The position numbers and the translations under genes are program-made. The notes under the pieces were generated by a model. The model had not been told where the DNA came from, did not search any database, and worked only from the letters and a program-made list of their open reading frames with translations. A DNA stretch of 64,000 nucleotides from Burkholderiales bacterium (GTDB lineage Bacteria > Pseudomonadota > Gammaproteobacteria > Burkholderiales > Casimicrobiaceae), in contig JAEUPL010000021.1 of the NCBI GenBank assembly GCA_016790165.1, positions 149,401 to 213,400 of the forward strand. Direction: 5' to 3'. Each line of letters opens with the position of its first letter. Position 1 is the stretch's first letter. Positions 28,399-46,786 of this stretch are shown here, piece after piece.

Positions 28399-29193
28399 TC
28401 AGTAGCCGAGTGCAGCGGCAGTCACCAAACCCGCTTCCAGTGTGAATTTTCCGGCAGCGATCCCCGCCACCATCGAGTCGCGCGGCACCTTGGCAAAACG
28501 TTCGACTTCGCCGTCCTGATTCGTCGGCTCGCGGTCATTGGGTACCGTGGCGCGGTACCAATCGATGCGTTCGCTGATATAGCCGCTCGCGCCGTCAGAG
28601 GTGGGTTTATGCAGATGCACGACGCCGCCCCAGGCCAGCCCAAAGAGTTCATCGAGCCTGAATCCAGCCTCCTCCCACGTCTCCCGTTCAAGGGCACGCT
28701 CCGGCGTGTCGACGGCAGTGACCATGCCACCCATCAGCGTGTCCCACTGGCCAGGATCGTTCGCCTTGTTGAGTGCGCGCTGCTGTACCCAGAAGTGACC
28801 GTCTGACGTCTCGCCGACCAGGTGCACGGCGCGAGTGCGCAACCCGAGCGGCCGCACTGCGGCGCGCTCGATGCTGCCGAGCATGTGGCCGCGCACGTCG
28901 TAGACGGGCAGTTGCTCGTTGCGCCAGACATGGGTAAAGCCGAGGTCCCGCATCGCGAGCGCAATGCGGGCGAGGCTCTCCGTCAGATTGCCATCGATGA
29001 TCCAGCCGTTCGCGGTATCGCGCAGCGGCGACAGGTTCTGAAAACTGAAGGTATGCGCGATCTGGCGCAACACTTTCGCCTCGGCGTCGCCAATCTCGAC
29101 ACCGCCCCACGACAGCGGCACCCGCTCGCGCAGCGGCGGCTGGTTGGCTTCAGCGCGAAGTTTGTGCACCCAGTCGGGGGCGGATTGCAGCAT
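28399..29193 (-). CDS. DUF4743/Nudix hydrolase with altered Nudix box
   Basis: 264 residues. The N-terminal half (NQPPLRERVPLSWGGVEIGDAEAKVL...GFTHVWRNEQLPVYD) matches the DUF4743 extension found in a Nudix group related to thiamine-diphosphate-like hydrolases and eukaryotic YJR142W-type proteins. The Nudix box is GMVTAVDTPERALERETWEEAGF. Against GX5EX7REUXEEXGU the first Glu is Asp and U before the Trp is Thr, while the metal-binding REXXEE core is kept. It is the last gene of the leftward phosphonate operon, 12 bases after the DMGDH-like gene. Its role there is unknown; pyrophosphate cleavage or damaged-cofactor clean-up are options. Confidence 0.85.
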   Translation of the reverse strand: MLQSAPDWVHKLRAEANQPPLRERVPLSWGGVEIGDAEAKVLRQIAHTFSFQNLSPLRDTANGWIIDGNLTESLARIALAMRDLGFTHVWRNEQLPVYDVRGHMLGSIERAAVRPLGLRTRAVHLVGETSDGHFWVQQRALNKANDPGQWDTLMGGMVTAVDTPERALERETWEEAGFRLDELFGLAWGGVVHLHKPTSDGASGYISERIDWYRATVPNDREPTNQDGEVERFAKVPRDSMVAGIAAGKFTLEAGLVTAAALGY

Positions 29194-29205
29194 GGCCGGT
29201 CAACT

Positions 29206-31632: not shown

Positions 31633-31645
31633 GCGCGATCCTCCG

Positions 31646-32509
31646 TCAGGCCAGACGCAACGCCATCACCCCCGCCACGATGACGCAGGTGCCGAGCGCT
31701 CGCCGCGCCGTAAATTGTTCCTTGAGCAACCAGGTGCCGAGCAGCGCGGCGAAAAGTACAGATGTTTCGCGCAGCGCCGCTACCGTGGCGACCGGCGCGC
31801 GGGTCATGGCCCATAGCGCGATGCCGTACGAACCCAGCGACGCCAGAGCCCCGCCCATTGCCACGGGCCAGCGTTTGCGTGCATACGGCCAGGCCGCGCG
31901 GCCGCGCCGGGCGAGCACGATGAAGGCAAACGGCCATCCGTCCAGCACAAAGAGCGCCACCACATATTGCACGGCGTTGCCGGATGCGCGTGCCCCCAGC
32001 GCATCAATCACGGTATACACCGCGATGACGACTGCATTGGCAAGTGCAAACAAGGTGGCGCGGCGATTGTCGAGCGCATGGCGACTGAGTCCCAATACCA
32101 GTACCCCCGCGCAAATCCCCATCACCCCCGCCCAGCCAAGCGGCGTCAGCGACTCACCGACCGTCATCACCGCCGAGAACGCAACCAGCATGGGCGCCAC
32201 ACCGCGCATGAGCGGATAGGTCAGACCCATGTCGCCGTGCTTGTAAGCCCCGGCGAGAGCGATGTAGTAGCCAATGTGGATGATGACCGACGCCAGGATG
32301 AAGGGCCACGAAGCACTGCCAGGCAAGCCAACCACCAGCAGCAACGGCAGCGCAATCAACGAGCCGAGCAGATGGATGAGGGCCGTATCGAGTGCCTTGT
32401 CCGTGCTCGATTTGACCAGTACGTTCCAGCTGGCGTGCAGCAGGGCGCCGAACAGGACGACCAGCACAACCGGCCAGGTCAGCGCCAGCGGTACAGCAGG
32501 CGACGTCAT
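31646..32509 (-). CDS. EamA/DMT-family permease
   Basis: About 287 residues from the ATG at 32509, which overlaps the stop of the HD gene as ATGA; the frame opens further upstream inside that gene. Ten predicted membrane helices in two EamA repeats (LTWPVVLVVLFGALLHASWNVL..., ...MTRAPVATVAALRETSVLFAALLGTWLLKEQF). DMT permeases commonly export amino acids or amines; some import. Its tight position between the HD oxygenase and the DMGDH-like gene implies it carries a substrate or product of this pathway. Confidence 0.88.
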   Translation of the reverse strand: MTSPAVPLALTWPVVLVVLFGALLHASWNVLVKSSTDKALDTALIHLLGSLIALPLLLVVGLPGSASWPFILASVIIHIGYYIALAGAYKHGDMGLTYPLMRGVAPMLVAFSAVMTVGESLTPLGWAGVMGICAGVLVLGLSRHALDNRRATLFALANAVVIAVYTVIDALGARASGNAVQYVVALFVLDGWPFAFIVLARRGRAAWPYARKRWPVAMGGALASLGSYGIALWAMTRAPVATVAALRETSVLFAALLGTWLLKEQFTARRALGTCVIVAGVMALRLA

Positions 32510-33075
32510 CCCCCGGACGCGGAAGGCGGCGCCGCCGTCACAACTCGCGACGCGCGAGCCAGAAAGTGCTCCAGCCCTGGCGTGCGCAAACCGGCGACCT
32601 TGGCCATGTCGTCCCAACGCCGAAGGCGCACCGCATCGGCTGCGCCTGGCTGGTCGATAAATGCGGCCGCCTCGCCATCGCTGAACACGCCGCCCTGCAG
32701 AGCGAGGCTTCGTTTTGAATCATCCGAAAGCGCGGCGTAGTAACCGCTATCCGTCGCACACAGGTAACGCTTGGCGTCAACGTGCAGCTTGATGCCGTCA
32801 AGCACGGCGTCTTCGAACAAGCCTCGCAGGAACGGCAGCGCCCGATACTGATGAACATCGTCGACGCCGCGTAGCGTCGGCGTCTCGCCGAGGTCGTGCA
32901 ACAGATGGCCGAGATCGTGCAACAGTGAGGCAGTCACCAGCGCATCGTCGGCGCCCTCGCCCTCCGCGAGTGCTGCCGTCTGCAGTGCGTGCTCGAGTTG
33001 GGTGACGGGTTCGCCGGAGTACTGCTCGTGCCCGCGTTCTGCGAACAGCCGCCGGATGTCGTCGATGCTCAACAT
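32506..33075 (-). CDS. PhnZ/TmpB-like HD-domain diiron oxygenase
   Basis: 189 residues of the HD-domain family associated with phosphonate operons, whose studied members PhnZ and TmpB are mixed-valence diiron oxygenases. They cleave the C-P bond of 1-hydroxy-2-aminoethylphosphonate, or its trimethyl form, to glycine or glycine betaine plus phosphate. All expected iron ligands are present: His29 (QLEH), His53-Asp54 (LLHDLGH), His75, His98 and Asp155 (RRWDD). Tyr19 and Glu22 in YSGE match the Tyr/Glu pair that guards the iron site in PhnZ, and KRYL (102-105) matches the substrate-binding lysine segment. No PhnY*/TmpA-type 2-oxoglutarate dioxygenase is encoded in this window. It lies 13 bases after phnY. 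Confidence 0.87.
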   Translation of the reverse strand: MLSIDDIRRLFAERGHEQYSGEPVTQLEHALQTAALAEGEGADDALVTASLLHDLGHLLHDLGETPTLRGVDDVHQYRALPFLRGLFEDAVLDGIKLHVDAKRYLCATDSGYYAALSDDSKRSLALQGGVFSDGEAAAFIDQPGAADAVRLRRWDDMAKVAGLRTPGLEHFLARASRVVTAAPPSASGG

Positions 33076-33088
33076 GGTCGGCTCCGCC

Positions 33089-34549
33089 CTAGACCCACGG
33101 CAAGGAGTAGGTCTTGATGTTGGTGAAGCTCTTCATGGCTTCCTGAACGCCTTCCTTGTAGCCGAGTCCGGAATCCTTGATGCCGCCGAAAGGCGTCAGC
33201 TCCAAACGGTAGCCTGGTACTTCGCGCACGTTGACGGTGCCAACATCAAGTTCACTGATAAAGCGCGTGATGTAGTCAAGCCGGTTGGTGCACACCGCGC
33301 TGGACAGGCCGTAGGCCGTGCCATTGGAGATGCGAATCGCCTCGTCCACACTGCGAAAGCGGATGATCGGAGACACGGGGCCGAACGTTTCCTCGCGCAC
33401 GACCATCATCGCCGGATCAACGCGGTCAAGCACGGTCGGTGAATAAAGGGCGCCACGACGCTGATTGCCGACCAGCAGCCGCGCCCCCTGACTCACCGCT
33501 TCATTGACGCGGCTTTCGAACAATCGCGCCGCGGGCTCGTCGATGACGGTGCCCATCTCCACCTTCGGATCGGACGGATCGCCGAACGTCCATGCTTTTG
33601 TCTTGGCCACCACCTGCTCGGTGAAGGCGTCGGCGACTGACTCGTGCACCAGCATGCGCTTGATCGCCGTACAGCGCTGTCCGCTGTTCTTGTACGAGCC
33701 CTGCACCGCCAGCGTGGAGGCTTCGTCAATGTCGGCGTCCTCCATCACGATGATCGGATCGTTGCCCCCGAGCTCCAGCACCATGCGCCGGTATCCTGCC
33801 TTGCTGGCGATGTACTTGCCAATCGCAACACCACCGGTAAAGGTGATCAGGTCAACGTGCTCGTTGGTCAGCAGTTCGTCGGCGATCTCGCGCGGATCAC
33901 CGGTAACGACCGAAAGCATTTCGGGCGGCAGGCCCGCTTCGTACAGAAAGTCCGCCAGCAGAATCGCGGAGAACGGCACCTTCTCCGAGGGCTTGAGCAC
34001 CATGCGGTTGTTGGTGGCCACACTGGGCACCACTTTATGTGCCACCTGATTCATCGGGTGGTTGAACGGTGTGATGGCTGTGATCACGCCCAGCAGCGGC
34101 GAACGCTGGGTATAGACGCGCCGTTTCTTGCCGTGATGCGTGAGGTCGCAGCTGAAGACCTGCCCGTCGTCTTTCAGCACCTCATTGGCGCCGAACAGGA
34201 AGACGTCGCTGACCCGGCCCGCCTCGTAGACGGCATCCTTCATGCAGAGGCCCGCCTCAGCGGAGATCAGCGCGGCCACCTCGTCCTTGCGCCGGTTGGC
34301 AATGTCCGCCGCACGGTTGAGGATCGCGGCGCGCTCATAGCGCGTGAGCTTCGATTGGTACGCATGGCCCGTGCTGAACGCGCTGCGAACCTCGTCCAGC
34401 GTCGCCTTGGGCACGGTCCCGATGACCGCTTCCGTGTAGGGGTTATGAACCGCGATGGCACGGTCTGCCGTGCGGTCCCCGCCCACACGCTTGCCGTTGA
34501 TGCGCATCGCGTTGAGGTGATGATCAAGAATGAACTGCTGGATGCTCAT
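33089..34549 (-). CDS. phnY: Phosphonoacetaldehyde dehydrogenase
   Basis: 486 residues, NAD(P)-dependent aldehyde dehydrogenase. The motifs include ITPFNHPMNQVAHKVVPS, the glutamate in MVLELGGNDPIIV and the catalytic cysteine in NSGQRCTAIKRM. ALDHs of this subgroup found between a phosphonoacetate hydrolase gene and a PhnW system oxidise phosphonoacetaldehyde to phosphonoacetate. The gene sits directly downstream of phnA, 51 bases apart. The assignment rests on context plus overall PhnY-like sequence (DHHLNAMRINGKRVG...PYTEAVIGTVP). Oxidation of another aldehyde cannot be excluded. Confidence 0.85.
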   Translation of the reverse strand: MSIQQFILDHHLNAMRINGKRVGGDRTADRAIAVHNPYTEAVIGTVPKATLDEVRSAFSTGHAYQSKLTRYERAAILNRAADIANRRKDEVAALISAEAGLCMKDAVYEAGRVSDVFLFGANEVLKDDGQVFSCDLTHHGKKRRVYTQRSPLLGVITAITPFNHPMNQVAHKVVPSVATNNRMVLKPSEKVPFSAILLADFLYEAGLPPEMLSVVTGDPREIADELLTNEHVDLITFTGGVAIGKYIASKAGYRRMVLELGGNDPIIVMEDADIDEASTLAVQGSYKNSGQRCTAIKRMLVHESVADAFTEQVVAKTKAWTFGDPSDPKVEMGTVIDEPAARLFESRVNEAVSQGARLLVGNQRRGALYSPTVLDRVDPAMMVVREETFGPVSPIIRFRSVDEAIRISNGTAYGLSSAVCTNRLDYITRFISELDVGTVNVREVPGYRLELTPFGGIKDSGLGYKEGVQEAMKSFTNIKTYSLPWV

Positions 34550-34600
34550 GGAAATTGGATGCAGCGCGCAAGAAAGGGTGATTAACGAACCGGACGAACG

Positions 34601-35836
<1,236 letters not shown>

Positions 35837-36637
35837 TTAAGCGGCTTTGGTTTCCCGTTGAGTGTTCTCGCCCGACGCCGTGCGGCTCTGCCGCCGCAAG
35901 TCGTTGGCGATCGTGCGTTCCTTGCTTTCCATGACGTGATCGAACATGGCGCGGCCGGCGGCCTCTGGGTCACCCGAGGCGATGGCTTTCAGAATCTGGC
36001 GATGTTCTCCCGCCGAGATCGGCATCAGCCAGCCGTCGGCCAGATTGAGCCGGCGGAACAGCGCGAGCTCCTTGATCAGTTTGCGGTAGATCGATGTGAG
36101 CTTGCGGTTGCCCACCATCTCGACCAGACGGTCGTGAAACTTGAGGTTCAGGAGGTGATAGGTGCGCGTATCGTTCACCTTGACCGCGCGCTCCATGGCG
36201 TCGACGAGCGCCTTGATTTCCTTTTGCTGTGCGGGCGTGATGTTCTTCGCCAGCTGACGGCCCACGAGCTCATCCATCGCCGCGCGCAGGTCGAAAATTT
36301 CGATCGCCTCGTCAATGGGGATATCGCGCACGAACACGCCCCGGTTCTTCTCGGTACGAACGAGTCCGGCCTCTTCCAGCATCCGGAACGCCTCGCGAAC
36401 CGGGCCGCGGGAGACGCCCATCTTTTCAGCCAGGGTGGCCTCCACCAGCTTGCTGCCGGGAGCGTACTCACCGGCGAGAATCGCGCGCTCGATGTCCTGC
36501 TGCACCAGCGTGGTCAGCGAACTGGTCTGCAACAGCGCGATGGTTGCCAGCGAATCGCCGGTGAGCGCGGACGCCGGCGGCAGGACAGGCGCAACGCCAG
36601 TCGTCGCCCCGTTGATGGCGTCGACATCAGCGGCCAT
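35837..36637 (-). CDS. GntR-family (FCD type) regulator of the phosphonate operons
   Basis: About 266 residues from the ATG at 36637, preceded at 7 bases by GGGGAGG; an upstream ATG at 36700 lies too close to the predicted promoter. The winged-helix N-domain (ILAGEYAPGSKLVEATLAEKMGVSRGPVREAFRMLEEAGLV) and an FCD ligand domain (IFDLRAAMDELVGRQLAKNITPAQ, LKFHDRLVEMVGN, EHRQILKAIASGDPEAAGRAMFDHV) are clear. First gene of the leftward operon and divergent from the importer operon. It likely represses both through the palindrome at 36716-36735 until a phosphonate or aldehyde is bound. Confidence 0.9.
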   Translation of the reverse strand: MAADVDAINGATTGVAPVLPPASALTGDSLATIALLQTSSLTTLVQQDIERAILAGEYAPGSKLVEATLAEKMGVSRGPVREAFRMLEEAGLVRTEKNRGVFVRDIPIDEAIEIFDLRAAMDELVGRQLAKNITPAQQKEIKALVDAMERAVKVNDTRTYHLLNLKFHDRLVEMVGNRKLTSIYRKLIKELALFRRLNLADGWLMPISAGEHRQILKAIASGDPEAAGRAMFDHVMESKERTIANDLRRQSRTASGENTQRETKAA

Positions 36638-36698
36638 CGCCACACCTCCCCGGCTCTGCGTGTTCGACAGCGGATGTGATTTTGCTGCGCATGACAGC

Positions 36699-36728
36699 AT
36701 TTGACTCGGTCAATCGCAGATTGTCAAC
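36699..36728 (-). promoter_or_regulatory. Promoter of the leftward regulator/phnA operon
   Basis: Read on the minus strand, TTGACA (36727-36722) and TCAAAT (36704-36699) are 17 bases apart. The -35 lies inside the perfect palindrome, so binding there would block this promoter. The predicted leader to the ATG at 36637 is about 55 bases. Confidence 0.55.
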
Positions 36729-36735
36729 AATCTGC
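36716..36735. promoter_or_regulatory. Perfect palindromic operator between the phosphonate operons
   Basis: GCAGATTGTCAACAATCTGC: two 9-base arms around a 2-base centre. A degenerate second copy with the same core (ATTGACAAATAATCTG) lies at about 36744-36759, across the -35 of the rightward promoter. The size and symmetry suit a GntR/FCD dimer. Binding is inferred. Confidence 0.7.
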
Positions 36736-36744
36736 AAAAAACAA

Positions 36745-36772
36745 TTGACAAATAATCTGTGGTCGGTCTAAA
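36745..36772 (+). promoter_or_regulatory. Promoter of the importer/phnW operon
   Basis: TTGACA (36745-36750) matches the -35 consensus exactly. TCTAAA (36767-36772) is a moderate -10 at 16 bases spacing. The -35 overlaps the degenerate second operator. This leaves an untranslated leader of about 180 bases before the ATG at 36959. Confidence 0.5.
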
Positions 36773-36958
36773 ACGGCTCAGCGACGGCGCGAAAGGGGCT
36801 TCGTGCGTGACATCTGACCGTGTTCAGGGCCACGCAGGAAAGCAGCTAGCGGATACGGCACGACACCTGCCAACGAGAGAGCAAACGCTCCCGCGCATCC
36901 GTCACAGCGTTGTCATGGACTGGTCACATCATTGCAAGTTTTGTGAAGGAGCCGCGAT

Positions 36959-37996
36959 ATGCGTATGTCTGATTTGTTCCGCCTCAGTGCCGTAGCGGGA
37001 ACCGTGCTGTTTGCTTCCCTGGGTTTTGCGCAAAAGACCACGCTGACGGTCTACACCGCCCTTGAAACCGACCAACTCAAAGCCTATGAGCAGGGCTTTT
37101 ACAAGGCCCATCCGGATGTCGAAATCAAGTGGGTGCGCGACTCCACGGGCGTCGTGACCGCCAAGCTGCTCGCGGAGAAAGCAAACCCGGTCGCCGATGC
37201 AGTGATGGGGGTCGCCGCGTCCAGCCTTGCGCTACTCGACAAGCAGGGCATGCTCGAACCCTACGCTCCAGCGGGTCTCGGCGCCATCCTGCCGCAATAC
37301 AAGGACAAGAAGTCGCCGCCCGCGTGGTTCGGCATGGACGTCTGGGGCGCAACCATTTGCTTCAACGCCGTCGAAGCCGCAAAAAAGAACATCCCGAAAC
37401 CCGAGACCTGGAAGGACCTGACCAAGCCGGTCTACAAGGGCCAGATCGTGATGCCGAACCCGGCATCCAGCGGCACCGGCTTCTTCGACGTGACAGCGTG
37501 GCTTACGCTGTTCGGTGACGATGGCGGCAAGGGCGGCGGGTGGCAGTTCATGAACGGGCTGCACGAGAACATTGCGCAGTACACGCACTCGGGCTCCAAG
37601 CCCTGCAACATGGCGGCCTCGGGTGAGTTCGTGCTAGGCATCTCGTTCGAGTACCGTGGCAACAGCAACAAGGCCAAGGGCGCACCGATTGATCTGGTGT
37701 TCCCGAAAGAAGGCCTTGGCTGGGATCTCGAAGCCTTCGCCATTCACAAGGGCACCAAGAAACTGGACGCGGCGAAGAAACTGGCCGACTGGGCATCCAG
37801 CAAGGACGCGATGGCGCTGTACGGCAAGAACTTCGCCATCACTGCCGTACCTGGCATGGCGCCGCCGCTGCCGAATGTGCCGGCCGACTACGAGTCGCGT
37901 CTGGTGAAGATGGACTTCGCCTGGGCGGCCGAGAATCGCGAGCGCATCCTCGCCGAATGGACGAAGCGCTACGACGGCAAGACCGAGAAGCGCTGA
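36959..37996 (+). CDS. Aminoethylphosphonate-type ABC transporter substrate-binding protein
   Basis: 345 residues with a signal peptide (MRMSDLFRLSAVAGTVLFASLGFAQ) and a periplasmic binding fold of the iron/AEP group (TTLTVYTALETDQLKAYEQGF). GAAGGAG lies 8 bases before the ATG. The phosphonate subgroup is indicated by WGATICFNAVEAAKKNIPKPETWKDLTKPVYKGQIVMPNPASSGTGF-type sequence and by the neighbours. It should deliver 2-aminoethylphosphonate or a relative to the permease encoded downstream. Whether it is closer to the PhnS or the AepX group needs phylogeny. Confidence 0.85.
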   Translation: MRMSDLFRLSAVAGTVLFASLGFAQKTTLTVYTALETDQLKAYEQGFYKAHPDVEIKWVRDSTGVVTAKLLAEKANPVADAVMGVAASSLALLDKQGMLEPYAPAGLGAILPQYKDKKSPPAWFGMDVWGATICFNAVEAAKKNIPKPETWKDLTKPVYKGQIVMPNPASSGTGFFDVTAWLTLFGDDGGKGGGWQFMNGLHENIAQYTHSGSKPCNMAASGEFVLGISFEYRGNSNKAKGAPIDLVFPKEGLGWDLEAFAIHKGTKKLDAAKKLADWASSKDAMALYGKNFAITAVPGMAPPLPNVPADYESRLVKMDFAWAAENRERILAEWTKRYDGKTEKR

Positions 37997-38094
37997 TAGC
38001 ACGCAGCCGGGCTTTCACCGAGCCACTGCCTTTTCCCGCCCGCAGCCATCCGATCGTGATGGCTGTGTGGCCTGTTTCATGCTCTGCAGAGTCC

Positions 38095-39192
38095 ATGACT
38101 GATCCGACCGTCGCCGCCTCCTACCTCAAGCTCTCCGGCGTCCACAAGGCATTCGGCGCGTTCACTGCGCTGAAGTCCATTGACCTCGACATTCGGCAAG
38201 GCGAATTCGTCTGCTTCCTCGGGCCTTCCGGTTGCGGCAAAACCACGTTGCTGCGAATCATTGCCGGCCTCGAAACGCCGACCGCGGGTCGCGTTGAGCA
38301 AGGCGGACGGGACATCACGACAGCACCACCCGCGGAGCGCGACTACGGCATCGTGTTTCAGAGTTACGCGCTTTTTCCGAACCTGACCGTCGCCGATAAC
38401 GTCGCCTACGGATTGGTTAACCGACGGACGCCGCGCGACGACGTCCAGCGTCGCGTGACCGAATTGCTCAAGCTGGTAGGTCTACCCGGCAGCGAGAAAA
38501 AGTTTCCGGGCCAGCTTTCCGGCGGGCAGCAGCAGCGGATTGCGCTGGCCCGAGCGCTGGCCACGTCACCCGGACTGCTCCTGCTCGATGAGCCACTGTC
38601 CGCGCTGGATGCGCTCGAACGCGTTCGCCTGCGTCAGGAAATCCGCGCCCTGCAGCAAAAGGTCGGGGTCACCACCATCATGGTCACACACGATCAGGAA
38701 GAGGCGCTCTCGGTCGCCGACCGCATCGTGGTGATGAATCATGGTGTGATCGAACAGGTGGGCGACGCAATCAGCGTGTACCGCGAGCCCGCCACGCCCT
38801 TCGTTGCCGACTTTGTCGGCAAGGTCAACGTGCTGCCCGGGCGCATTGCGACGGGCGAGCTCAGCGTTGGCACATTCCGGTTGCGCAACGATGCGACAGC
38901 GCGCGCCGCCGACGGCGAGGTCAAGGTCTACTTGCGCCCGGAGGATGTGCTCGCGCGCCCGACCCGTGGTGGTGCACCCAGCTTCGCGACTGACGATCCG
39001 AACGTGTTTGACGCCGAAATCGAAAAGATCGAGTTTCTCGGGTCGTTCTGCCACGTTCACGTTCGCAGCGACGCCTTTGCGCCAAATCGGCTGACGGTTT
39101 ATCTCTCGCTGAATTTCCTGACCGAGCAGGCACTCTCGGTAGGCTCCATGCTGCGCCTCAAGCTGTTGCCCGAACGGCTGCGGGTGTTCTGA
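38095..39192 (+). CDS. Aminoethylphosphonate-type ABC transporter ATPase
   Basis: About 365 residues from the ATG at 38095 (MTDPTVAASYLKLSGVHKAF); upstream in-frame ATGs at 37957 and 38059 overlap or adjoin the binding-protein gene and fit less well. Walker A GPSGCGKTT, signature LSGGQQQRIALARAL, Walker B LLLLDEPLSALD, and a C-terminal TOBE-like domain (VNVLPGRIATGELSVGTFRLRND). Energises uptake together with the fused permease that starts two bases after its stop. Confidence 0.9.
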   Translation: MTDPTVAASYLKLSGVHKAFGAFTALKSIDLDIRQGEFVCFLGPSGCGKTTLLRIIAGLETPTAGRVEQGGRDITTAPPAERDYGIVFQSYALFPNLTVADNVAYGLVNRRTPRDDVQRRVTELLKLVGLPGSEKKFPGQLSGGQQQRIALARALATSPGLLLLDEPLSALDALERVRLRQEIRALQQKVGVTTIMVTHDQEEALSVADRIVVMNHGVIEQVGDAISVYREPATPFVADFVGKVNVLPGRIATGELSVGTFRLRNDATARAADGEVKVYLRPEDVLARPTRGGAPSFATDDPNVFDAEIEKIEFLGSFCHVHVRSDAFAPNRLTVYLSLNFLTEQALSVGSMLRLKLLPERLRVF

Positions 39193-39193
39193 T

Positions 39194-40933
39194 ATGACGG
39201 CTGTGACCTCGCCAGGCGGCGAAGCCGGGGCTGCTGCACCTGCGGCGACGCGTCTCGTGCAACGGGTTCACTGGTCGGATCGCGTCGCGCACGTCTGGCT
39301 GGTCGCGATTGCCCTGCTGCTCCTCGCGTTCCTCGCGGCGCCGCTGGCAGCAATCCTGATGCAGGCCTTCGAAGGCAAGGATCGCGAGTTTGTCGGACTC
39401 AGCAATTTCATCGCCTACGCCCGCACACCGGCCCTGCTGTCGAGCCTGTGGAACAGTGTGTGGGTATCGATGGCGGTCACGGCCATCACCATCCCGGTGG
39501 CGTTTGTGTTCGCCTACGGGCTCACGCGCTCGTGCATGCCCTGGAAACCGCTGTTTCGAGGCATCAGCCTGATTCCGCTGCTCGCGCCGTCACTGCTCTC
39601 TGCGATCTCGCTGATCTACTGGTTCGGCAATCAGGGCATTGCCAAGGGTTTTATGCAGGCACTGGGCATCCAGCAGATTTACGGCGCACCGGGGATTGTG
39701 CTCGCGGAGTGCTTCGCAGTGTTTCCGCACGCGCTGATGATCCTGATCACGGCGCTGAGCCTGGCCGACGCCCGCCTGTACGAGGCCGCTGCCGCGATGG
39801 GCACCAGTCGGGTACGCAAGTTCTTCACCATCACCCTGCCCGGAGCCAAATACGGCCTGCTCTCTGCCGCGCTGGTTACCTTTACGCTGGTGATGACTGA
39901 CTTCGGCATCCCGAAGGTGATTGGCGGTAACTTCAACGTGCTGGCAACTGACGTGTTCAAGCTGGTGATCGGTCAGCAGGACTTCGCCAAGGGCTCAGTC
40001 GTCGCGCTGCTGCTGTTGCTGCCGGCGGTATTTACCTTCGCTGTGGATCACTACGTCAGTCGCCGGCAAACGGCGATGCTCACGGCCCGCGCGGTACCGT
40101 ACAAAGCTCTGCCCAGCAAGGGCTTTGACCGGATCATGCTGCTCTGCTGCAGCGTCATTGCCCTGCTAATGCTTGCAATGCTCGGCATGGCCATCTTTGC
40201 TTCGTTCGCGAGCTTCTGGCCATACAACCTGACGCCCAGCCTCCGGCACTACGTGCTCGGTCTCGTTGATGGCGAGGTCGGCGAAGGCTTCATCAACAGC
40301 CTGAAGATGGCCGGCGGCTCCGCCCTGTTCGGTACCTTGCTGGTGTTCTTTGGTGCCTATCTGCTCGATAAGACGAAAGGTGCGCCGCTGTTACGCGGGC
40401 CGGTGAAAATGCTGGCGATGTTGCCGATGGCGGTGCCCGGTCTGGTACTGGGCCTCGGTTACATCTTCTTTTTCAACGCGCCGGGGAACCCGCTGCATGG
40501 GCTCTACCAGACCACGGCGCTCTTGACGCTCTGCACGATCATTCACTTCTACACGACCGGGCATCTCACGGCAGTCACCGCGCTCAAGTCGCTCGACAGC
40601 GAGTTTGAAGCGGTCAGCGCTTCACTCAAGGTGCCGTGGTTCCGCACCTTCTGGCGTGTCACCTTGCCCATCTGCACCCCAGCAATGGTCGATATCGCCC
40701 GATACTTCTTCGTCAACGCCATGACCACCATTTCCGCTGTGGTGTTCCTTTACTCGCCCGAGACCAAGGTCGCTTCGATCGCCATCCTGAACCTCGACGA
40801 GGCTGGCGAAATTGGCGCGGCCGCCGCGATGGCCGTCATGATCGCGGCGATTTCCGCCGTCGCCACCGGTGTCTTCATGCTGCTTGCCCGCTGGGTCGAT
40901 CGCCGTACCCAGGCCTGGCGCGGCCCCCGATAG
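39194..40933 (+). CDS. Aminoethylphosphonate-type ABC transporter permease (fused)
   Basis: 579 residues, two binding-protein-dependent permease domains in one chain. The first membrane set covers about 30-290 and the second about 310-570. Each has the EAA-type loop that contacts the ATPase: EAAAAMGTSRVRKFFTITLPG in the first half and EAVSASLKVPWFRTFWRVTLPI in the second. This fused form is the one used by the AEP importers of the PhnU2-type and ferric-type group. Stop and next start (phnW) are 10 bases apart. Confidence 0.9.
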   Translation: MTAVTSPGGEAGAAAPAATRLVQRVHWSDRVAHVWLVAIALLLLAFLAAPLAAILMQAFEGKDREFVGLSNFIAYARTPALLSSLWNSVWVSMAVTAITIPVAFVFAYGLTRSCMPWKPLFRGISLIPLLAPSLLSAISLIYWFGNQGIAKGFMQALGIQQIYGAPGIVLAECFAVFPHALMILITALSLADARLYEAAAAMGTSRVRKFFTITLPGAKYGLLSAALVTFTLVMTDFGIPKVIGGNFNVLATDVFKLVIGQQDFAKGSVVALLLLLPAVFTFAVDHYVSRRQTAMLTARAVPYKALPSKGFDRIMLLCCSVIALLMLAMLGMAIFASFASFWPYNLTPSLRHYVLGLVDGEVGEGFINSLKMAGGSALFGTLLVFFGAYLLDKTKGAPLLRGPVKMLAMLPMAVPGLVLGLGYIFFFNAPGNPLHGLYQTTALLTLCTIIHFYTTGHLTAVTALKSLDSEFEAVSASLKVPWFRTFWRVTLPICTPAMVDIARYFFVNAMTTISAVVFLYSPETKVASIAILNLDEAGEIGAAAAMAVMIAAISAVATGVFMLLARWVDRRTQAWRGPR

Positions 40934-40943
40934 GTAGCTCCCC

Positions 40944-42068
40944 ATGTCACACGACCGCATTCTGCTCACCCCCGGCCCACTGACCACATCGCTGCAAACC
41001 AAGCTCGCGATGTTGCGCGATTGGGGTTCGTGGGATGCCGAGTTCAACGTCGTCACCGCGCGCGTCCGGCAAAGCCTGCTGCGCATCGTCCACGGCGAAG
41101 AGACCCACGTCGTCGTTCCGCTGCAGGGCAGCGGCACCTTCAGCGTCGAGGCGGCTGTCGCGACCGTCGTGCCACGCCGCGGTCACGTGCTGGTGCTTGA
41201 CAACGGCGCATACTGCAAGCGTGCTGCCAGGCTCACCACGATGATGGACCGGCGCTGCACCGTCATGTCGTTCCCCGATCACGAGCCGGTGTCGCCCGCC
41301 GCGCTGCGCGAGAAGCTCGCAGGCGACGCAAGCATCACGCACGTCATCCTCATTCACTGCGAAACCGGGGCGGGCGTGCTGAATCCGCTGGCAGAAGTTG
41401 CTGAAATCTGCGCCGCGCAAGGCAAGGGCCTCATCATCGACGCCATGAGCTCGTTTGCCGCGCTGGAAATTGACGCGCGGAAGACCCGCTTCGACGCGCT
41501 GATCGCGGCCAGCGGCAAGTGCCTGGAAGGCGTGCCTGGCATGGGTTTCGTGTTCATCCGCAAGGCGGTTCTTGACGGGTGTGCGGGCAACAGTCAGTCG
41601 CTGGCAATGGACTTGCACGACCAGTACGTCTACATGGAAAAGACCGGCCAGTGGCGCTTCACCCCACCCACCCATGTGGTGGTGGCACTGGCCGAAGCCA
41701 TCGCCCAGTTTGAGGCAGAGGGCGGGCAGCCGGCGCGTCTCGACCGCTACACCCGCAACTATGAAACACTGGTGAGCGGCATGGGCGCACTGGGCTTCAA
41801 ACCGTTTCTCGACCCAGCGGTACAAGCGCCGATCATCGTCACCTTTCACGCACCAGCGCATCCAAACTACGACTTCAAGCGCTTCTACGACGCAGCGAAG
41901 GCGCGCGGCTTTATCCTCTACCCGGGCAAGCTGACGCAAGTCGAGACCTTCCGCGTCGGCTGCATCGGCGCCATCACCCCAGTGGAAATTGAGCAAGCCG
42001 TGCACGCCGTCGCGCTGGCGCTCAAGGATCTCGGCATTCCGTCCGGCGCGCCCGCGGCGCACTTGTAG
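40944..42068 (+). CDS. phnW: 2-Aminoethylphosphonate:pyruvate transaminase
   Basis: 374 residues, PLP-dependent class V aminotransferase. PhnW moves the amino group of 2-aminoethylphosphonate to pyruvate, giving phosphonoacetaldehyde and alanine. Diagnostic parts: [67 protein letters not shown], the PLP lysine in [16 protein letters not shown], and [16 protein letters not shown]. Length is that of known PhnW. Its product is the substrate of the PhnY/PhnA pair encoded on the opposite strand. Confidence 0.95.
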
Positions 42069-42171
42069 GAGCGGATGGAAGCAATCACACACCGAGCTGG
42101 TCGTCCATGTGCGCAGCGGCCCGCCGCGTCGGCCAGTCGCAGCACTGCAAGACTTTGATAGGGAGACACAC

Positions 42172-43539
42172 ATGGCAACCCGTCCGCAGAAAGAACATCC
42201 CGCGCTGTCCGCTATGCGCACGTCTGGCGCGAGCAAAGTCAAGGTGGCTGTCAGCGATATCGACGGCATCCTGCGCGGCAAGTATCTGCACCGCGACAAG
42301 TTCTTTGGCGCTGCGGACAGTGGCTTCGGTTTTTGCGATGTCGTGTTCGGCTGGGACGCTCACGACAACTGCTACGACAACACGACGGTGACCGGCTGGC
42401 AGCACGGCTTCCCTGACGCGCTGGCACGCCTCGATCTCAACACACATCGCCAGGTGCCGTGGGACAGCAACGTCAATTTCTTCCTCGGTGAATTTGTCAA
42501 TGCCGATGGCTCGCCCTTTCCGGTGTGTCCACGGCAGACGCTGAAGCGCGTGCTGAAACGCGCCGAGAAGCTCGGCGTGCAACCGATGACGGGCATGGAG
42601 TTTGAGTGGTTCAACTTCGTCGAGACGCCGCAAAGCTGGGCCGAGAAGCGCGGCGTCGCCCCGACCCCGCTCACACCCGGCATGTTTGGCTATTCGCTGC
42701 TGCGGATGGCGGACAACCAACCCTTCTTCAATGCGTTGATGGACGACATGCTCGCCTTTGGCGTGCCGCTTGAAGGGCTGCACACCGAGACCGGCCCCGG
42801 TGTTTATGAGGCGGCCATCGCCTTCAGCGAAGCGCTGGAACAAGCTGACCGCGCCATTCTCTTCAAGACCGGTGCCCGCGAGATTGGCAAGCGCTACGGC
42901 ATCATGCCCAGCTTCATGGCCAAATGGAACCAGCAATATCCCGGCTGCAGTGGGCACCTGCACCAAAGCCTCTCCGACGGCAAAAAGAACCTCTTCTTCG
43001 ACGCCAAAGGTCCGCGCGCGATGAGCAAACTCTTCGAGAGCTACCTCGCCGGTCAGGTGGCGTGCCTGATGGAGTTTGCGCCAATGTTCTGGCCCACCAT
43101 CAACAGTTACAAGCGTCTAGTCGATGGCTTCTGGGCCCCCGTGAAGCCGACGTGGGGCATGGACAACCGCACCGCGAGCTTCCGCGTCATTGCTGGCTCG
43201 CCGAAAGCCACCCGCCTGGAGACACGCTGCCCTGGCGCCGATGTCAACCCTTACCTCGCTGCCGCCGCGCTGATCGCCGCCGGCCTGCATGGCGTGGAGA
43301 AAGGCCTCAAGCTCACCACGCCGCCGATCACCGGCACCAATCAGGGTGCCGAGAACATTCCCCGCGCGCCGAGAACGCTGATTGAAACTACGCGCAATTT
43401 CCGCAACTCCAGCATCGCACGCGACTGGCTTGGCGACACCTTCGTTGACCACTTCGCCGCGACTCGCGAATGGGAATGGCGGCAGTGGCAGGACGCCGTC
43501 ACCGACTGGGAACTGAAACGCTACTTCGAAATCATCTAA
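42172..43539 (+). CDS. Glutamine-synthetase-like amine:glutamate ligase
   Basis: 455 residues from the ATG at 42172 with TAGGGAG 9 bases upstream; the frame is open further upstream without homology. All GS catalytic blocks are kept: GMEFEWFNF, LEGLHTETGPGVYEAAI, CSGHLHQSLSDGKKNLF, MDNRTASFRV and RLETRCPGADVNPYLAAAALIAAGL. It is not a housekeeping GlnA: it lacks the C-terminal adenylylation tyrosine motif and resembles the group that gamma-glutamylates amines (GlnA4, PauA and IpuC types). It follows phnW by about 100 bases and is followed by an alcohol and an aldehyde dehydrogenase. That suggests gamma-glutamylation of an amino alcohol or related amine before oxidation. The substrate is inference. 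Confidence 0.85.
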   Translation: MATRPQKEHPALSAMRTSGASKVKVAVSDIDGILRGKYLHRDKFFGAADSGFGFCDVVFGWDAHDNCYDNTTVTGWQHGFPDALARLDLNTHRQVPWDSNVNFFLGEFVNADGSPFPVCPRQTLKRVLKRAEKLGVQPMTGMEFEWFNFVETPQSWAEKRGVAPTPLTPGMFGYSLLRMADNQPFFNALMDDMLAFGVPLEGLHTETGPGVYEAAIAFSEALEQADRAILFKTGAREIGKRYGIMPSFMAKWNQQYPGCSGHLHQSLSDGKKNLFFDAKGPRAMSKLFESYLAGQVACLMEFAPMFWPTINSYKRLVDGFWAPVKPTWGMDNRTASFRVIAGSPKATRLETRCPGADVNPYLAAAALIAAGLHGVEKGLKLTTPPITGTNQGAENIPRAPRTLIETTRNFRNSSIARDWLGDTFVDHFAATREWEWRQWQDAVTDWELKRYFEII

Positions 43540-43556
43540 CGCTGCAGCACACGCGC

Positions 43557-44690
43557 ATGTCGATCTCTTCCTTTTCCTTCCCCACCACCATCAAGTTTGG
43601 CGTCGGCGCCCGCAAAGGAGTCGCCGATCACCTGCGCGAACAAGGGCTCAAGCGCCCGCTGATCGTCACTGACCGTGCACTGGGTGCGCTGCCCGTGCTC
43701 GCCGAATTCAAGGCAACGCTGACCGGACTGGATACCGCCGTCTATTCCGGCGTGTTTGGCAACCCGACTTGCGCGCAAGTGATGGACGGCGCGGCGGCGT
43801 ACAAGGCGCACGGCGCCGATTGCGTGATTGGCTTCGGCGGCGGCGCCGCGCTGGATGTCGCCAAGATCGTCGGCGTAGCGGCCACACACGAAGGAGACAT
43901 CCTGGAGTACGTGTGGGATCACCCGCAGGTACGGCCCATTACGCAGCCGCTGCCGTACTTCGTGGCATTGCCGACGACCTCGGGCACCGGCTCGGAAGTT
44001 GGCCGCTCATCGGTCGTCAGTGAGAACGACACGCATTTGAAGCGCGTCGTGTTCAGCCCCAAGATTCTCGCGCGCTGCGTGTTCGCCGACCCGGAATTGA
44101 CCGTGGGCCTGCCGCCCGCCGTCACCGCCGCCACCGGCATCGACGCGTTGACGCATAACGTCGAGAGCTACCTCTCGCCCGCCTACCACCCGCTGTGCGA
44201 TGGTATTGCGCTGGAAGGCACGCGCATCGCGGCGCGCGCGCTGCTGACCGCCGTCCGCGAACCAGGCAACCTGCAAGCGCGCAGCGACATGATGATGGCG
44301 TCGATGATGGGCGCCATCGCGTTCCAGAAGGATCTAGGTGCGGTGCATTCCTGCGCGCACGCGCTTGGCGCCGTCAACGACCTCCATCACGGTCTGGCCA
44401 ACGCGCTGATGATCGATACGGTGATGGCGTGGAACCATGAAGTGGTCCCCCGGAAGTTCGACGAACTGGCGCACGTCTGCGGCGTGGCCGGGGGTGGCAC
44501 GGCCTTCGTGCCGTGGCTCAAATCGCTCAAAGCGAGCATCGGCATCACCGGCTCACTCAAGTCGCACGGTGTGACTGAAGCGCATCTGCCGCGTCTCGTC
44601 GATATCGCCACCCGCGACATCTGCCACCAGACCAACCCGCGGCCCTGCAGCGGCGCCGACTTTGACCGGTTGTTCCGCGCGGCGATGTAG
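43557..44690 (+). CDS. Iron-type (group III) alcohol dehydrogenase
   Basis: 377 residues from the ATG at 43557, 17 bases after the ligase stop; the frame opens upstream within that gene. NAD-binding region VIGFGGGAALDVAKIVGVAATH and metal site residues in TGIDALTHNVESYLSPAYHPLCD, KDLGAVHSCAHALGAVNDLHHGLANALM (three His) are complete. Two roles fit the setting: oxidising a gamma-glutamyl amino alcohol, or interconverting 2-hydroxyethylphosphonate and phosphonoacetaldehyde, as the related PhpC-type enzymes do in phosphonate biosynthesis. Confidence 0.9.
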   Translation: MSISSFSFPTTIKFGVGARKGVADHLREQGLKRPLIVTDRALGALPVLAEFKATLTGLDTAVYSGVFGNPTCAQVMDGAAAYKAHGADCVIGFGGGAALDVAKIVGVAATHEGDILEYVWDHPQVRPITQPLPYFVALPTTSGTGSEVGRSSVVSENDTHLKRVVFSPKILARCVFADPELTVGLPPAVTAATGIDALTHNVESYLSPAYHPLCDGIALEGTRIAARALLTAVREPGNLQARSDMMMASMMGAIAFQKDLGAVHSCAHALGAVNDLHHGLANALMIDTVMAWNHEVVPRKFDELAHVCGVAGGGTAFVPWLKSLKASIGITGSLKSHGVTEAHLPRLVDIATRDICHQTNPRPCSGADFDRLFRAAM

Positions 44691-44720
44691 CCGCACCGCC
44701 TCACCTCATACGGCAACATC

Positions 44721-46094
44721 ATGGCAACTCTCGCAATCATCAACCCAGCCACCGGCGTGCAAATCGACGAAGTGCCGGCGGACGACGCAGCCACCGTTGC
44801 GCTCAAGGCCGCGCAGGCGCGCGCCGCACAGCCGCGCTGGCAGCGCGTGCCACTCGCCGAGCGAAAGGCGTGCATCGATCGCTTCCGCGCGCTGGTGGTG
44901 CGCGATCTTGAATCGCTCGCCCGCACATTGACGCTCGATACCGGCAAACCTATCCGTCAGGCGCGCAACGAGCTGAACGGACTGCTTGGCCGCATCGACT
45001 TCTTCCTGGGAAGCGTAGAGCGTTCAACCGGCACCGAAACCGTGTTCGACGAAGGCGGCATGCGCGAACAGATTGAGCACGTGCCACTCGGGGTGGTCGC
45101 CAACATTTCAGCGTGGAACTACCCGTGGTTCGTTGGCGGTAACGTCTTCGTGCCTGCGCTGCTGACCGGCAACACGGTGCTCTACAAGCCGTCTGAGTAC
45201 GCCACCCTGACCGGGCTTGAGATCGCCCGTCTGCTCTACGAGGCAGGCGTGCCCTACGATGCTTTCATCACGCTGGTGGGCGATGGCAGCGTCGGCGCAG
45301 CGCTGATGGAACAGCGAATCGATGGACTCTTTTTCACCGGCTCCTACGCCACCGGCGCTCGCATCGCACGGACGATGGGCTCGAGCATGGTCAAGCTGCA
45401 ATTGGAGCTGGGCGGCAAAGACCCAACCTATGTACGCGCCGATGCAAATATCAAGAACGCAGCGGAATCGCTGGCCGATGGTGCGATGTACAACACCGGT
45501 CAGAGCTGCTGTTCGGTCGAACGCATTTATGTGCACGCTGCCGTCTACGATGAATTCGTGCGCCACTTTGTCGACGTGGTGAACACGTTCAAAGTCGGCG
45601 ACCCCATGGCGGAAGACACCTACATCGGCGCCATCACCCGCGCGCCGCAGCTTGACGTGCTGGACGCCCAGGTCGAAGACGCGCGGCGCAAGGGCGGGCG
45701 CCTGCTGGTCGGCGGTCATCGCCTGCCAGGGCCAGGCAACTGGTATGCGCCCACCGTTTACGCCGACGTTAACCACTCGATGGAGTTGATGCGCGAGGAG
45801 AGTTTCGGCCCCATCATCGGTATCCAGAAAGTGGCTGACGATGCCGAGGCCGTGGCGATGATGAACGACACACGCTATGGCCTCACCGCTGGCGTTTACA
45901 CGCCGGACGAAGCGGTCGCGCGAAACATCCTTTCGCACGTCAAAGCCGGGAGCGTGTACTGGAACTGCTGCGACCGCGTGAGCCCTCGCCTGCCGTGGAG
46001 CGGTTACGGTGATTCCGGCATTGGCCTCACGCTCTCCACCTATGGCATCCAGACCTTCTGCCGTACGAAGGCGTGGCATCTGCGCAGCGCATGA
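44721..46094 (+). CDS. NAD(P)-dependent aldehyde dehydrogenase
   Basis: 457 residues. ISAWNYPWFVGGNVFVPALLTGNTVLYKPSE, the glutamate in LQLELGGKDPTYV and the catalytic cysteine in MYNTGQSCCSVERI (two adjacent Cys) are clear. At the C-terminus SPRLPWSGYGDSGIGLTLSTYG is typical of the betaine/gamma-aminobutyraldehyde-like group. It follows the alcohol dehydrogenase by 30 bases, so it probably oxidises that enzyme's product. It is distinct from the PhnY-type ALDH of the leftward operon. Confidence 0.9.
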   Translation: MATLAIINPATGVQIDEVPADDAATVALKAAQARAAQPRWQRVPLAERKACIDRFRALVVRDLESLARTLTLDTGKPIRQARNELNGLLGRIDFFLGSVERSTGTETVFDEGGMREQIEHVPLGVVANISAWNYPWFVGGNVFVPALLTGNTVLYKPSEYATLTGLEIARLLYEAGVPYDAFITLVGDGSVGAALMEQRIDGLFFTGSYATGARIARTMGSSMVKLQLELGGKDPTYVRADANIKNAAESLADGAMYNTGQSCCSVERIYVHAAVYDEFVRHFVDVVNTFKVGDPMAEDTYIGAITRAPQLDVLDAQVEDARRKGGRLLVGGHRLPGPGNWYAPTVYADVNHSMELMREESFGPIIGIQKVADDAEAVAMMNDTRYGLTAGVYTPDEAVARNILSHVKAGSVYWNCCDRVSPRLPWSGYGDSGIGLTLSTYGIQTFCRTKAWHLRSA

Positions 46095-46786
46095 TGGTTG
46101 TGTCACGCCCGCAACTTGTCCTGTTCGATCTTGACCACACGCTGCTCGATGGCGACAGCGATGTACTGTGGTGCGACTACCTGATTCGCCACGGCGTGCT
46201 CAACGCCGGCGAGTTTTCGGCGCGAAACGCCGACATGGATGCCCGCTATCGTGCCGGTGCTGTTTCGCCACGCGAATTTTGCAATTTTTACGTCAGTACG
46301 CTGGCCGGGCGGAGCGCAGTGGATTGGGCGCCGGTGCGCGACGCGTGGTTTGCTGAGGACGTGCGGCCACGCATCTCGCAGGCCGCGCGCGATCTGGTGC
46401 AACGCCACCTGCGAGCCGGTGCGCGCGTGGTGATGACCACTGCGACCAACCGCTTTCTCGTCGAACGCACGGCTGCCGAGTTTGGCATCACGCATCTTCT
46501 TGCGACCGAGCCTGAGTGCGTCGACGATCAATTCACCGGGCGCACCACCGGCGAGCTCAACATGCGCGAGGGCAAGGTGGCGCGTCTGGCCGCATGGCTG
46601 CTCGAGCGCAACGAACCGGGTCGCACCACGCTCGCCAACTTTGACAGTACCGCCTACAGCGATTCGACCAACGATCTGCCGCTGCTGCAAGCCGTCGATC
46701 ACCCCGTCGCAGTGAACCCCGACGCGCGCCTGCACGCCTGGGCGACGATGCACGGTCACCCGGTGATCTCACTGCGGACAACGTAG
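46091..46786 (+). CDS. HAD-IB family phosphatase
   Basis: About 231 residues from the ATG at 46091, which overlaps the ALDH stop (ATGATG over TGA). Motif I is LVLFDLDHTLLDGDSD, motif II in RVVMTTATNRFLVE, and motif III/IV LANFDSTAYSDSTNDLPLLQAVDHPVAVNPD, the SerB/CicA-like HAD-IB pattern. Expected activity is hydrolysis of a small phosphomonoester. The position at the end of the rightward operon, coupled to the ALDH, suggests a substrate from the same catabolic route. Identity is unknown. Confidence 0.87.
   Translation: MMVVSRPQLVLFDLDHTLLDGDSDVLWCDYLIRHGVLNAGEFSARNADMDARYRAGAVSPREFCNFYVSTLAGRSAVDWAPVRDAWFAEDVRPRISQAARDLVQRHLRAGARVVMTTATNRFLVERTAAEFGITHLLATEPECVDDQFTGRTTGELNMREGKVARLAAWLLERNEPGRTTLANFDSTAYSDSTNDLPLLQAVDHPVAVNPDARLHAWATMHGHPVISLRTT

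Follow-up and report, generated by a model that had tools for sequence, protein, structure and literature searches.

2-Aminoethylphosphonate (AEP) serves as a head group in phosphonolipids, as ethanolamine does in phospholipids. Gene clusters that degrade AEP through PhnW, PhnY, and PhnA (phnWYA or phnWAY clusters) have been described, and phnZ was reported in 24 of 75 of them (PMC8154272; statements on this and the other papers cited refer to the parts of their text that were available). A gamma-glutamyl route for ethanolamine is described from Streptomyces coelicolor (PMC6529630) and from Phaeobacter and Chromohalobacter salexigens (PMC10132767); one Phaeobacter operon holds all four of its activities, and its genes are described as close relatives of those in C. 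salexigens and A. tumefaciens (PMC10132767). The published Pbf oxidoreductases, which act on N-methyl-AEP, yield phosphonoacetaldehyde directly (PMC10590968). The AEP cluster type and the ethanolamine route are each already known. Here, we describe a locus that appears to join them, in a 64,000-nucleotide stretch of DNA (the window) from a Burkholderiales bacterium of the family Casimicrobiaceae (GenBank assembly GCA_016790165.1, contig JAEUPL010000021.1, positions 149,401 to 213,400). We consider it probable, from gene content and gene neighborhoods, that this locus, with its two operons, serves the catabolism of head-group-like amines and combines an AEP core with a gamma-glutamyl ethanolamine module. 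A search of the open-licence PMC literature, preprints not covered, found no paper on the joined cluster or on the phn-linked clade of dimethylglycine dehydrogenase (DMGDH)-like proteins reported below.

A ligase and dehydrogenase module linked to phosphonate genes

The core of the cluster is of the known phnWYA type, with a GntR regulator, PhnA, PhnY, an HD oxygenase, and a permease in one operon and an AEP importer and PhnW in the other (Table 1). PhnW, PhnY, and PhnA are encoded together, each scoring above its curated cut-off. Judging by families of known biochemistry, AEP would be imported and then converted by these three enzymes to alanine, acetate, and phosphate. Behind phnW, the same operon encodes a glutamine synthetase (GS)-like ligase, an iron-containing alcohol dehydrogenase (Fe-ADH), and an aldehyde dehydrogenase (ALDH), which are orthologous to a four-gene set of many Burkholderiales consisting of GS, Fe-ADH, a PuuD-like hydrolase, and ALDH.

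Whether the ligase and dehydrogenase genes are linked to phn genes in relatives was a check proposed in an initial annotation of this DNA, and the linkage was confirmed. The named loci came from searching named genomes with the GS protein (the best 80 of 306 relatives), and their titles refer mainly to Burkholderiales genera or families or to unassigned beta-proteobacteria. Odd labels also occur, such as "delta proteobacterium" for the metagenome-assembled genome (MAG) of L129 and "Bordetella parapertussis" for that of L112. PhnW is encoded ≤4.5 kb upstream of GS in 53 of the 67 named loci with at least 1.5 kb of upstream sequence. Sixty-four loci extend 5 kb or more downstream; of these, Fe-ADH was found in 59, ALDH in 57, and the PuuD-like gene in 52, and ADH, PuuD, and ALDH follow in that order in 51. 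The window's arrangement of an alcohol and an aldehyde dehydrogenase next to the ligase is conserved in 57 of these 64. These linkage counts are lower bounds, as L084 and L127 miss the distance rule yet show Fe-ADH and the phnW of L072 lies outside the rule; they supersede an earlier count with narrower distances (Fe-ADH in 51 of 75), after whose result the distance rules were altered. Five loci (L071, L073, L074, L078, and L087) share the window's downstream neighbors and have ADH and ALDH without PuuD, the first four being records of genus genomes already counted.

In a sample of 300 genomes of the order, a GS ortholog (≥66% identity) was found in 14, PhnA (E ≤1e-100) in 27, and both in 9 (Fisher p = 1.5e-7, a value that overstates independence because the nine co-holders fall in four genera). 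The 66% cut was picked after viewing a gap down to 52%; a threshold of E ≤1e-60 gives 37 matches in the 300 genomes. In 6 of the 14 GS-ortholog genomes, the two genes share a contig and lie ≤20 kb apart; in G137, G242, and G300, they are on separate contigs, with GS beside the ethanolamine permease gene. Among members of the window's genus in this sample, GS and phnA occur together in G000 and G005, and neither occurs in G002, G007, G009, G011, or G016. A class sample of 321 genomes contained no GS ortholog at E ≤1e-170 other than the window's own match.

A proposed ethanolamine substrate

We postulate that the module is best read as the gamma-glutamyl route by which Streptomyces, Chromohalobacter, and Phaeobacter process ethanolamine. 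As the conserved gene set and its permease neighbors suggest, the GS-like ligase would join glutamate and ethanolamine, Fe-ADH and ALDH would oxidize the resulting alcohol, by way of its aldehyde, to gamma-glutamylglycine, and a PuuD-type hydrolase would split the latter into glycine and glutamate. Ethanolamine permeases above the family cut-off (381.75 bits) are encoded beside phn-free sets in L053 (625.6 bits) and L143 (624.7 bits), and the permeases of L052 and L054 are 95 and 98% identical to that of L053. In L131, L149, and L150, a permease slightly below the cut-off (360 to 372 bits) lies between phnW and GS. A permease is likewise present at two loci whose GS is distant (48 and 51% identity), above the cut-off in L067 (617.6 bits) and below it in L063 (350.8 bits). 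The GS proteins of L052 to L054 and L143 nest among phn-linked GS (fork support, 93) in a quickly built tree with 104 GS rows, and we therefore take the permease-linked GS to be the same enzyme.

Features of the ligase itself are consistent with this substrate. The flap Glu of the genome's own GlnA is Trp in the window GS and in all 11 other GS-like rows aligned, so that none of these 12 ligases has the ammonium-type flap Glu; the Asp is kept, and the Tyr region of the alignment is gapped. The second-best solved relative of the window GS is 5dm3 (226 bits), presumably a C. salexigens protein. Given the residue roles reported for these enzymes, the Glu-to-Trp exchange is in keeping with the loss of Glu in GlnA4 and PauA7, both of which lack Glu327 and Tyr179 (PMC6529630). 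EutB was detected in none of the 17 genomes of the window's genus, with a positive E. coli control. The initial annotation had suggested a wider substrate set, with amino alcohols and N-methylated aminophosphonates among its guesses; the idea that the cluster serves more than AEP stands, and we narrow it to ethanolamine.

Several observations weigh against this reading. The GS-like protein, Fe-ADH, and ALDH passed no named NCBIfam equivalog, the GS-like protein being below the cut-offs of the GlnA, type III, and gamma-glutamylputrescine models. The ethanolamine permease is present in just 9 of the 120 loci examined (L031 to L150), two of them with distant GS, and is therefore supporting rather than general evidence; no permease scored above the ethanolamine cut-off in the 17 genus genomes. 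By the distance rule, Fe-ADH is missing in five named loci with room for it (including L084 and L127). In the order sample, 5 of the 14 GS-ortholog genomes have no PhnA match at E ≤1e-100, although two of the five (G241 and G270) have importer genes near GS and G241 also has phnW. Finally, the window's operon has no PuuD-like gene.

The last point makes the ligase/ADH/ALDH route of the initial annotation incomplete here: the hydrolase that ends it is in the operon of relatives and in the window's genus would need to act from elsewhere. We therefore describe the window cluster as working like a gamma-glutamyl ethanolamine pathway rather than as a full member. The PuuD-like protein of relatives is related to gamma-Glu-GABA hydrolase, scoring 102.8 bits against a cut-off of 266. 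The best PuuD-like match in the window's own genome, whose assembly is 91.9% complete, has 37% identity over part of the query and lies on contig C5, where its gene adjoins a PuuC-like gene (668 versus 850 bits) next to DUF898 and M48 peptidase genes (L182:6042-8385). It is a candidate for the hydrolase absent from the operon.

An alternative hypothesis is that the GS, ADH, and ALDH apply gamma-glutamyl logic to another amino alcohol, such as alaninol or 3-aminopropanol. The missed equivalog cut-offs and the scarcity of the permease would fit it as well, but the sole substrate-named transporter next to the set belongs to the ethanolamine permease family, and does so in several lineages; we regard a different amino alcohol as improbable. 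We give little credence to the module being a neighbor of the phosphonate genes that is unconnected to them in function and regulation. It does occur without phnW in 14 of the 67 named loci by the distance rule, and in sister genera (L048 and L050) it is on the strand opposite to phnW; however, the linkage is repeated under many genus names, and in the window the spacing is tight (103 bases from phnW to the GS start, 17 from GS to Fe-ADH, and 30 from Fe-ADH to ALDH).

A third proposal would have Fe-ADH and ALDH make glycine betaine from choline, with the DMGDH-like enzyme continuing the route and the GS-like protein a bystander. The Bacillus choline dehydrogenase model gives Fe-ADH 252 bits, and that for betaine-aldehyde dehydrogenase gives ALDH 315 bits, both far below the cut-offs (550 and 668.6), and a GbcA-like Rieske gene adjoins the DMGDH-like gene in L046. 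Most named loci, however, carry GS and PuuD-like genes, which are superfluous for choline oxidation, and the phn-free sets observed include no DMGDH-like gene, which makes choline a very unlikely substrate. It is hardly credible that Fe-ADH supplies PhnY with phosphonoacetaldehyde from 2-hydroxyethylphosphonate, a substrate raised by the initial annotation and chemically simple with an alcohol dehydrogenase beside PhnY, since Fe-ADH reaches 149.7 of the 423.7 bits demanded by the phosphonate Fe-ADH model TIGR03405, the same set occurs without phn genes, and GS and a second ALDH would stay unexplained.

Predicted regulation of the two operons

The GntR protein is predicted to bind the inverted repeat at positions 36717 to 36734, and a single regulator acting there would probably govern both operons. 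The motif TTGTCAACAA is present in 45 of 46 distinct divergent regions (48 were found) and ATTGTCAACAAT in 42 of 46, with 0.0 motif occurrences per set in mononucleotide shuffles; because the divergent regions share ancestry, this recurrence reflects conservation rather than independent recurrence. The exact 12-mer has a single occurrence in the 3.76-Mb genome, at this locus, with five more sites at one mismatch; the reversed-pattern control occurs nowhere in the genome. TTGTCAACAA was found in 0 of 16 GS loci whose examined stretch has no phn gene; for one of the 16, L059, the same genome has a phn cluster about 15 kb away. A promoter scan of the divergent region returned no sigma-70-like site, and one terminator-like site was found there versus 0.4 in shuffles.

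DMGDH-like and HD oxygenase genes

The best solved kin of the DMGDH-like protein are dimethylglycine dehydrogenases (472.7 bits, full length), and with its DAO, FAO_M, GCV_T, and GCV_T_C domains it has dimethylglycine dehydrogenase architecture; it falls far below the cut-offs of TIGR03364 (65.8 versus 285.1 bits) and TIGR03329 (26.5 versus 632.8 bits). Fifteen phn-linked rows (14 of them distinct, counting the window) group as a single clade with support of 100/100 in a 26-row tree, whose sample is biased in that most phn-linked rows came from stretches picked for phnA. The nearest outsider, L171, is phn-free, and L046 is phn-linked yet outside the clade. Linkage of this gene to phn genes, the check proposed in the initial annotation, held within the genus and sister genera. 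Over the wider order, at E ≤1e-150, there were 13 matches in 12 of the 300 genomes, and only 3 of the 13 matches lie in phn clusters (G000, G005, and G241 contig C16). Among matches with at least 58% identity, three of four do. The gene is independent of the HD oxygenase, because it occurs in L041, L047, L048, and L050, where no HD gene was found.

We speculate that the DMGDH-like protein is perhaps an N-demethylase for methylated aminophosphonates, which would probably strip N-methyl groups and pass them to folate, the weakest step of the proposed mechanism. Ordinary use of dimethylglycine or sarcosine is a serious rival explanation for this gene. Tentatively, the shared regulator would have AEP and ethanolamine degraded in parallel, while a phosphonate-dedicated two-domain demethylase moves the N-methyl groups of methylated AEP to folate and thereby provides PhnW with AEP, unlike the Pbf enzymes with their direct release of phosphonoacetaldehyde.

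Two side observations concern this gene in relatives. In L046 (7924-11875), the interval between the importer and GntR genes is occupied by genes for a GbcA-like Rieske oxygenase (371 bits; cut-off, 670) and a DMGDH-like protein, with the operator-like motif on either side of the pair; the pair could possibly be a trimethyl-AEP demethylation module. In sister genera (L050:18996-19850; L041), the DMGDH-like gene is followed by one for an IclR-family regulator that resembles BhcR (305.9 versus 350 bits).

The HD oxygenase passes TIGR03276 and carries the HD signature, which places it in the PhnZ/TmpB HD family, short of the TmpB and PhnZ1 equivalog models (160.7 and 146 versus 300). By eye, in an alignment with the TmpB and PhnZ structures, its His/Asp positions match those of PhnZ; we take the iron ligands to be among them. 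The enzyme would cleave a 1-hydroxylated aminophosphonate into glycine and phosphate, (R)-1-hydroxy-AEP being its most likely substrate. The initial annotation had listed this gene among the extra ones; by the published frequency of phnZ in phnWAY clusters, given above, it is not unusual.

Layout and conservation of the cluster

The cluster comprises two divergent gene runs, at 36700-28399 on the minus strand and 36959-46786 on the plus strand (Table 1). Families were called with NCBIfam (TIGR) curated cut-offs and Pfam domain scans of the open reading frames (ORFs) of the window. The ORF list and these scans bore out every gene and position named in the initial annotation, and the left-operon spacing in the list (9, 51, 13, overlap, 13, and 12 bases) agrees with the gaps and overlap it gave; its total of 13 genes becomes 15 when the three importer genes are counted singly. 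TIGR03261/03265/03262 presumably correspond to AepXVW. The TIGR03265 match of PhnT2 begins at residue 55, and the true start is probably 38095. The permease start at 32509 was our choice among start candidates.

Table 1. Genes and predicted operator of the cluster, in window coordinates
Feature	Position	Strand	Family evidence
Nudix hydrolase, last of left operon	28399..29193	-	PF00293 48 bits
DMGDH-like two-domain FAD oxidoreductase/folate-binding protein, 808 aa	29206..31632	-	DAO, FAO_M, GCV_T, GCV_T_C
EamA/DMT permease (phn_DUF6)	31646..32509	-	TIGR03340 277.5 bits, slightly below cut-off 288.15
PhnZ/TmpB-like HD oxygenase (Phn-HD)	32506..33075	-	TIGR03276 237.8 bits, cut-off 214.6
PhnY phosphonoacetaldehyde dehydrogenase	33089..34549	-	TIGR03250 858 bits, cut-off 636
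PhnA phosphonoacetate hydrolase	34601..35827	-	TIGR02335 608 bits, cut-off 408
GntR/FCD regulator, phnR_burk type	35837..36700	-	TIGR03338 333 bits, cut-off 272
Inverted repeat CAGATTGT-CA-ACAATCTG, predicted GntR operator between operons	36717..36734		
PhnS2, substrate-binding protein of AEP-type ABC importer	36959..37996	+	TIGR03261 498 bits, cut-off 393
PhnT2, ATPase of AEP-type ABC importer	37957..39192 (longest ORF)	+	TIGR03265 498 bits, cut-off 458
PhnU2, permease of AEP-type ABC importer	39194..40933	+	TIGR03262 782 bits, cut-off 593
PhnW AEP:pyruvate transaminase	40944..42068	+	TIGR02326 480 bits, cut-off 401
GS-like ligase, proposed gamma-glutamylethanolamide synthetase	42172..43539	+	PF00120 302 bits
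Fe-ADH, proposed gamma-glutamylethanolamide dehydrogenase	43557..44690	+	PF00465/PF25137
ALDH, proposed gamma-glutamyl-aminoacetaldehyde dehydrogenase	44721..46094	+	PF00171 437 bits
HAD-IB hydrolase, start 46073 or 46091	46073..46786	+	TIGR01490 128.5 bits, cut-off 98.3

PhnA matches at E ≤0.001 were found in 24 of 60 relatives, one of them weak (G048, 8e-6), and strong matches in 9 of the 17 genus genomes, the window's own included. The order of genes is that of the window in the eight other phnA-bearing genus genomes, as far as stretches and contigs extend, and we therefore take the cluster order to be more than chance. All 15 genes are present in four stretches (L031, L032, L033, and L037). 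The Nudix protein is 70 to 92% identical in five of eight same-genus stretches, the remaining ones being cut off or without Nudix. HAD follows ALDH in 41 of the 53 named loci with enough room.

Relatives also have genes absent from the window's cluster or arranged differently. A Na/Pi-cotransporter gene with a PhoU-like tail (TIGR00704, above cut-off) adjoins phnY or dmt genes in many of them (for example, L050:13859-15583, L040:4368-6065, and L111:6395-8056) but has no counterpart in the window's cluster; its product could export excess phosphate when AEP is a source of nitrogen or carbon. In L040 (9556-12013), genes for a TRAP substrate-binding protein and a large permease lie between GntR and the importer genes of the phn cluster; L040 belongs to genome G057, whose GS gene sits about 15 kb from this cluster. 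L140 (Ramlibacter montanisoli) has two importer gene sets and two ALDH matches within one phn/GS cluster. An ethanolamine TRAP importer suspected in L058 from gene sizes was rejected, the Pfam matches being to beta-lactamase-family and amidohydrolase proteins.

Implications and comparison with known systems

If our proposal is true, many Burkholderiales would handle AEP and ethanolamine as one resource. It offers a testable function for cluster genes that had none (GS-like, Fe-ADH, PuuD-like, ALDH, and DMGDH-like), and it makes testable the idea that phosphonate use in these bacteria is coupled to the supply of nitrogen and one-carbon units, beyond phosphate alone.

The locus resembles the AepXVW system, in which an ABC importer for AEP likewise stands next to phnW or phnWAY genes; the main text of that paper makes no mention of ethanolamine (PMC8316502). 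Like PbfB, PbfC, and PbfD, the DMGDH-like protein is an FAD oxidoreductase with a DAO domain encoded inside an AEP cluster, but by the available descriptions it is set apart by its folate-binding GCV_T part and by its full-length resemblance to dimethylglycine dehydrogenase (PMC10590968). With the gamma-glutamyl ethanolamine routes of S. coelicolor (GlnA4), Phaeobacter, and C. salexigens, the module shares the GS-like ligase and the alcohol and aldehyde dehydrogenases (PMC6529630, PMC10132767). Their amidohydrolase is matched in the window's relatives, where it is PuuD-like (class C26-type), whereas the window's operon has none. S. coelicolor has a short-chain dehydrogenase where the window has Fe-ADH (PMC6529630), and the Phaeobacter route uses a TRAP importer, unlike the window (PMC10132767). 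In contrast to these routes, the window module is set in a phosphonate cluster. That cluster has PhnW, PhnY, PhnA, an importer, a regulator, and a PhnZ-type HD gene in common with described phnWYA clusters and differs from them in that no PbfA was seen in the window and in its additional GS/Fe-ADH/ALDH module and DMGDH-like gene (PMC8154272).

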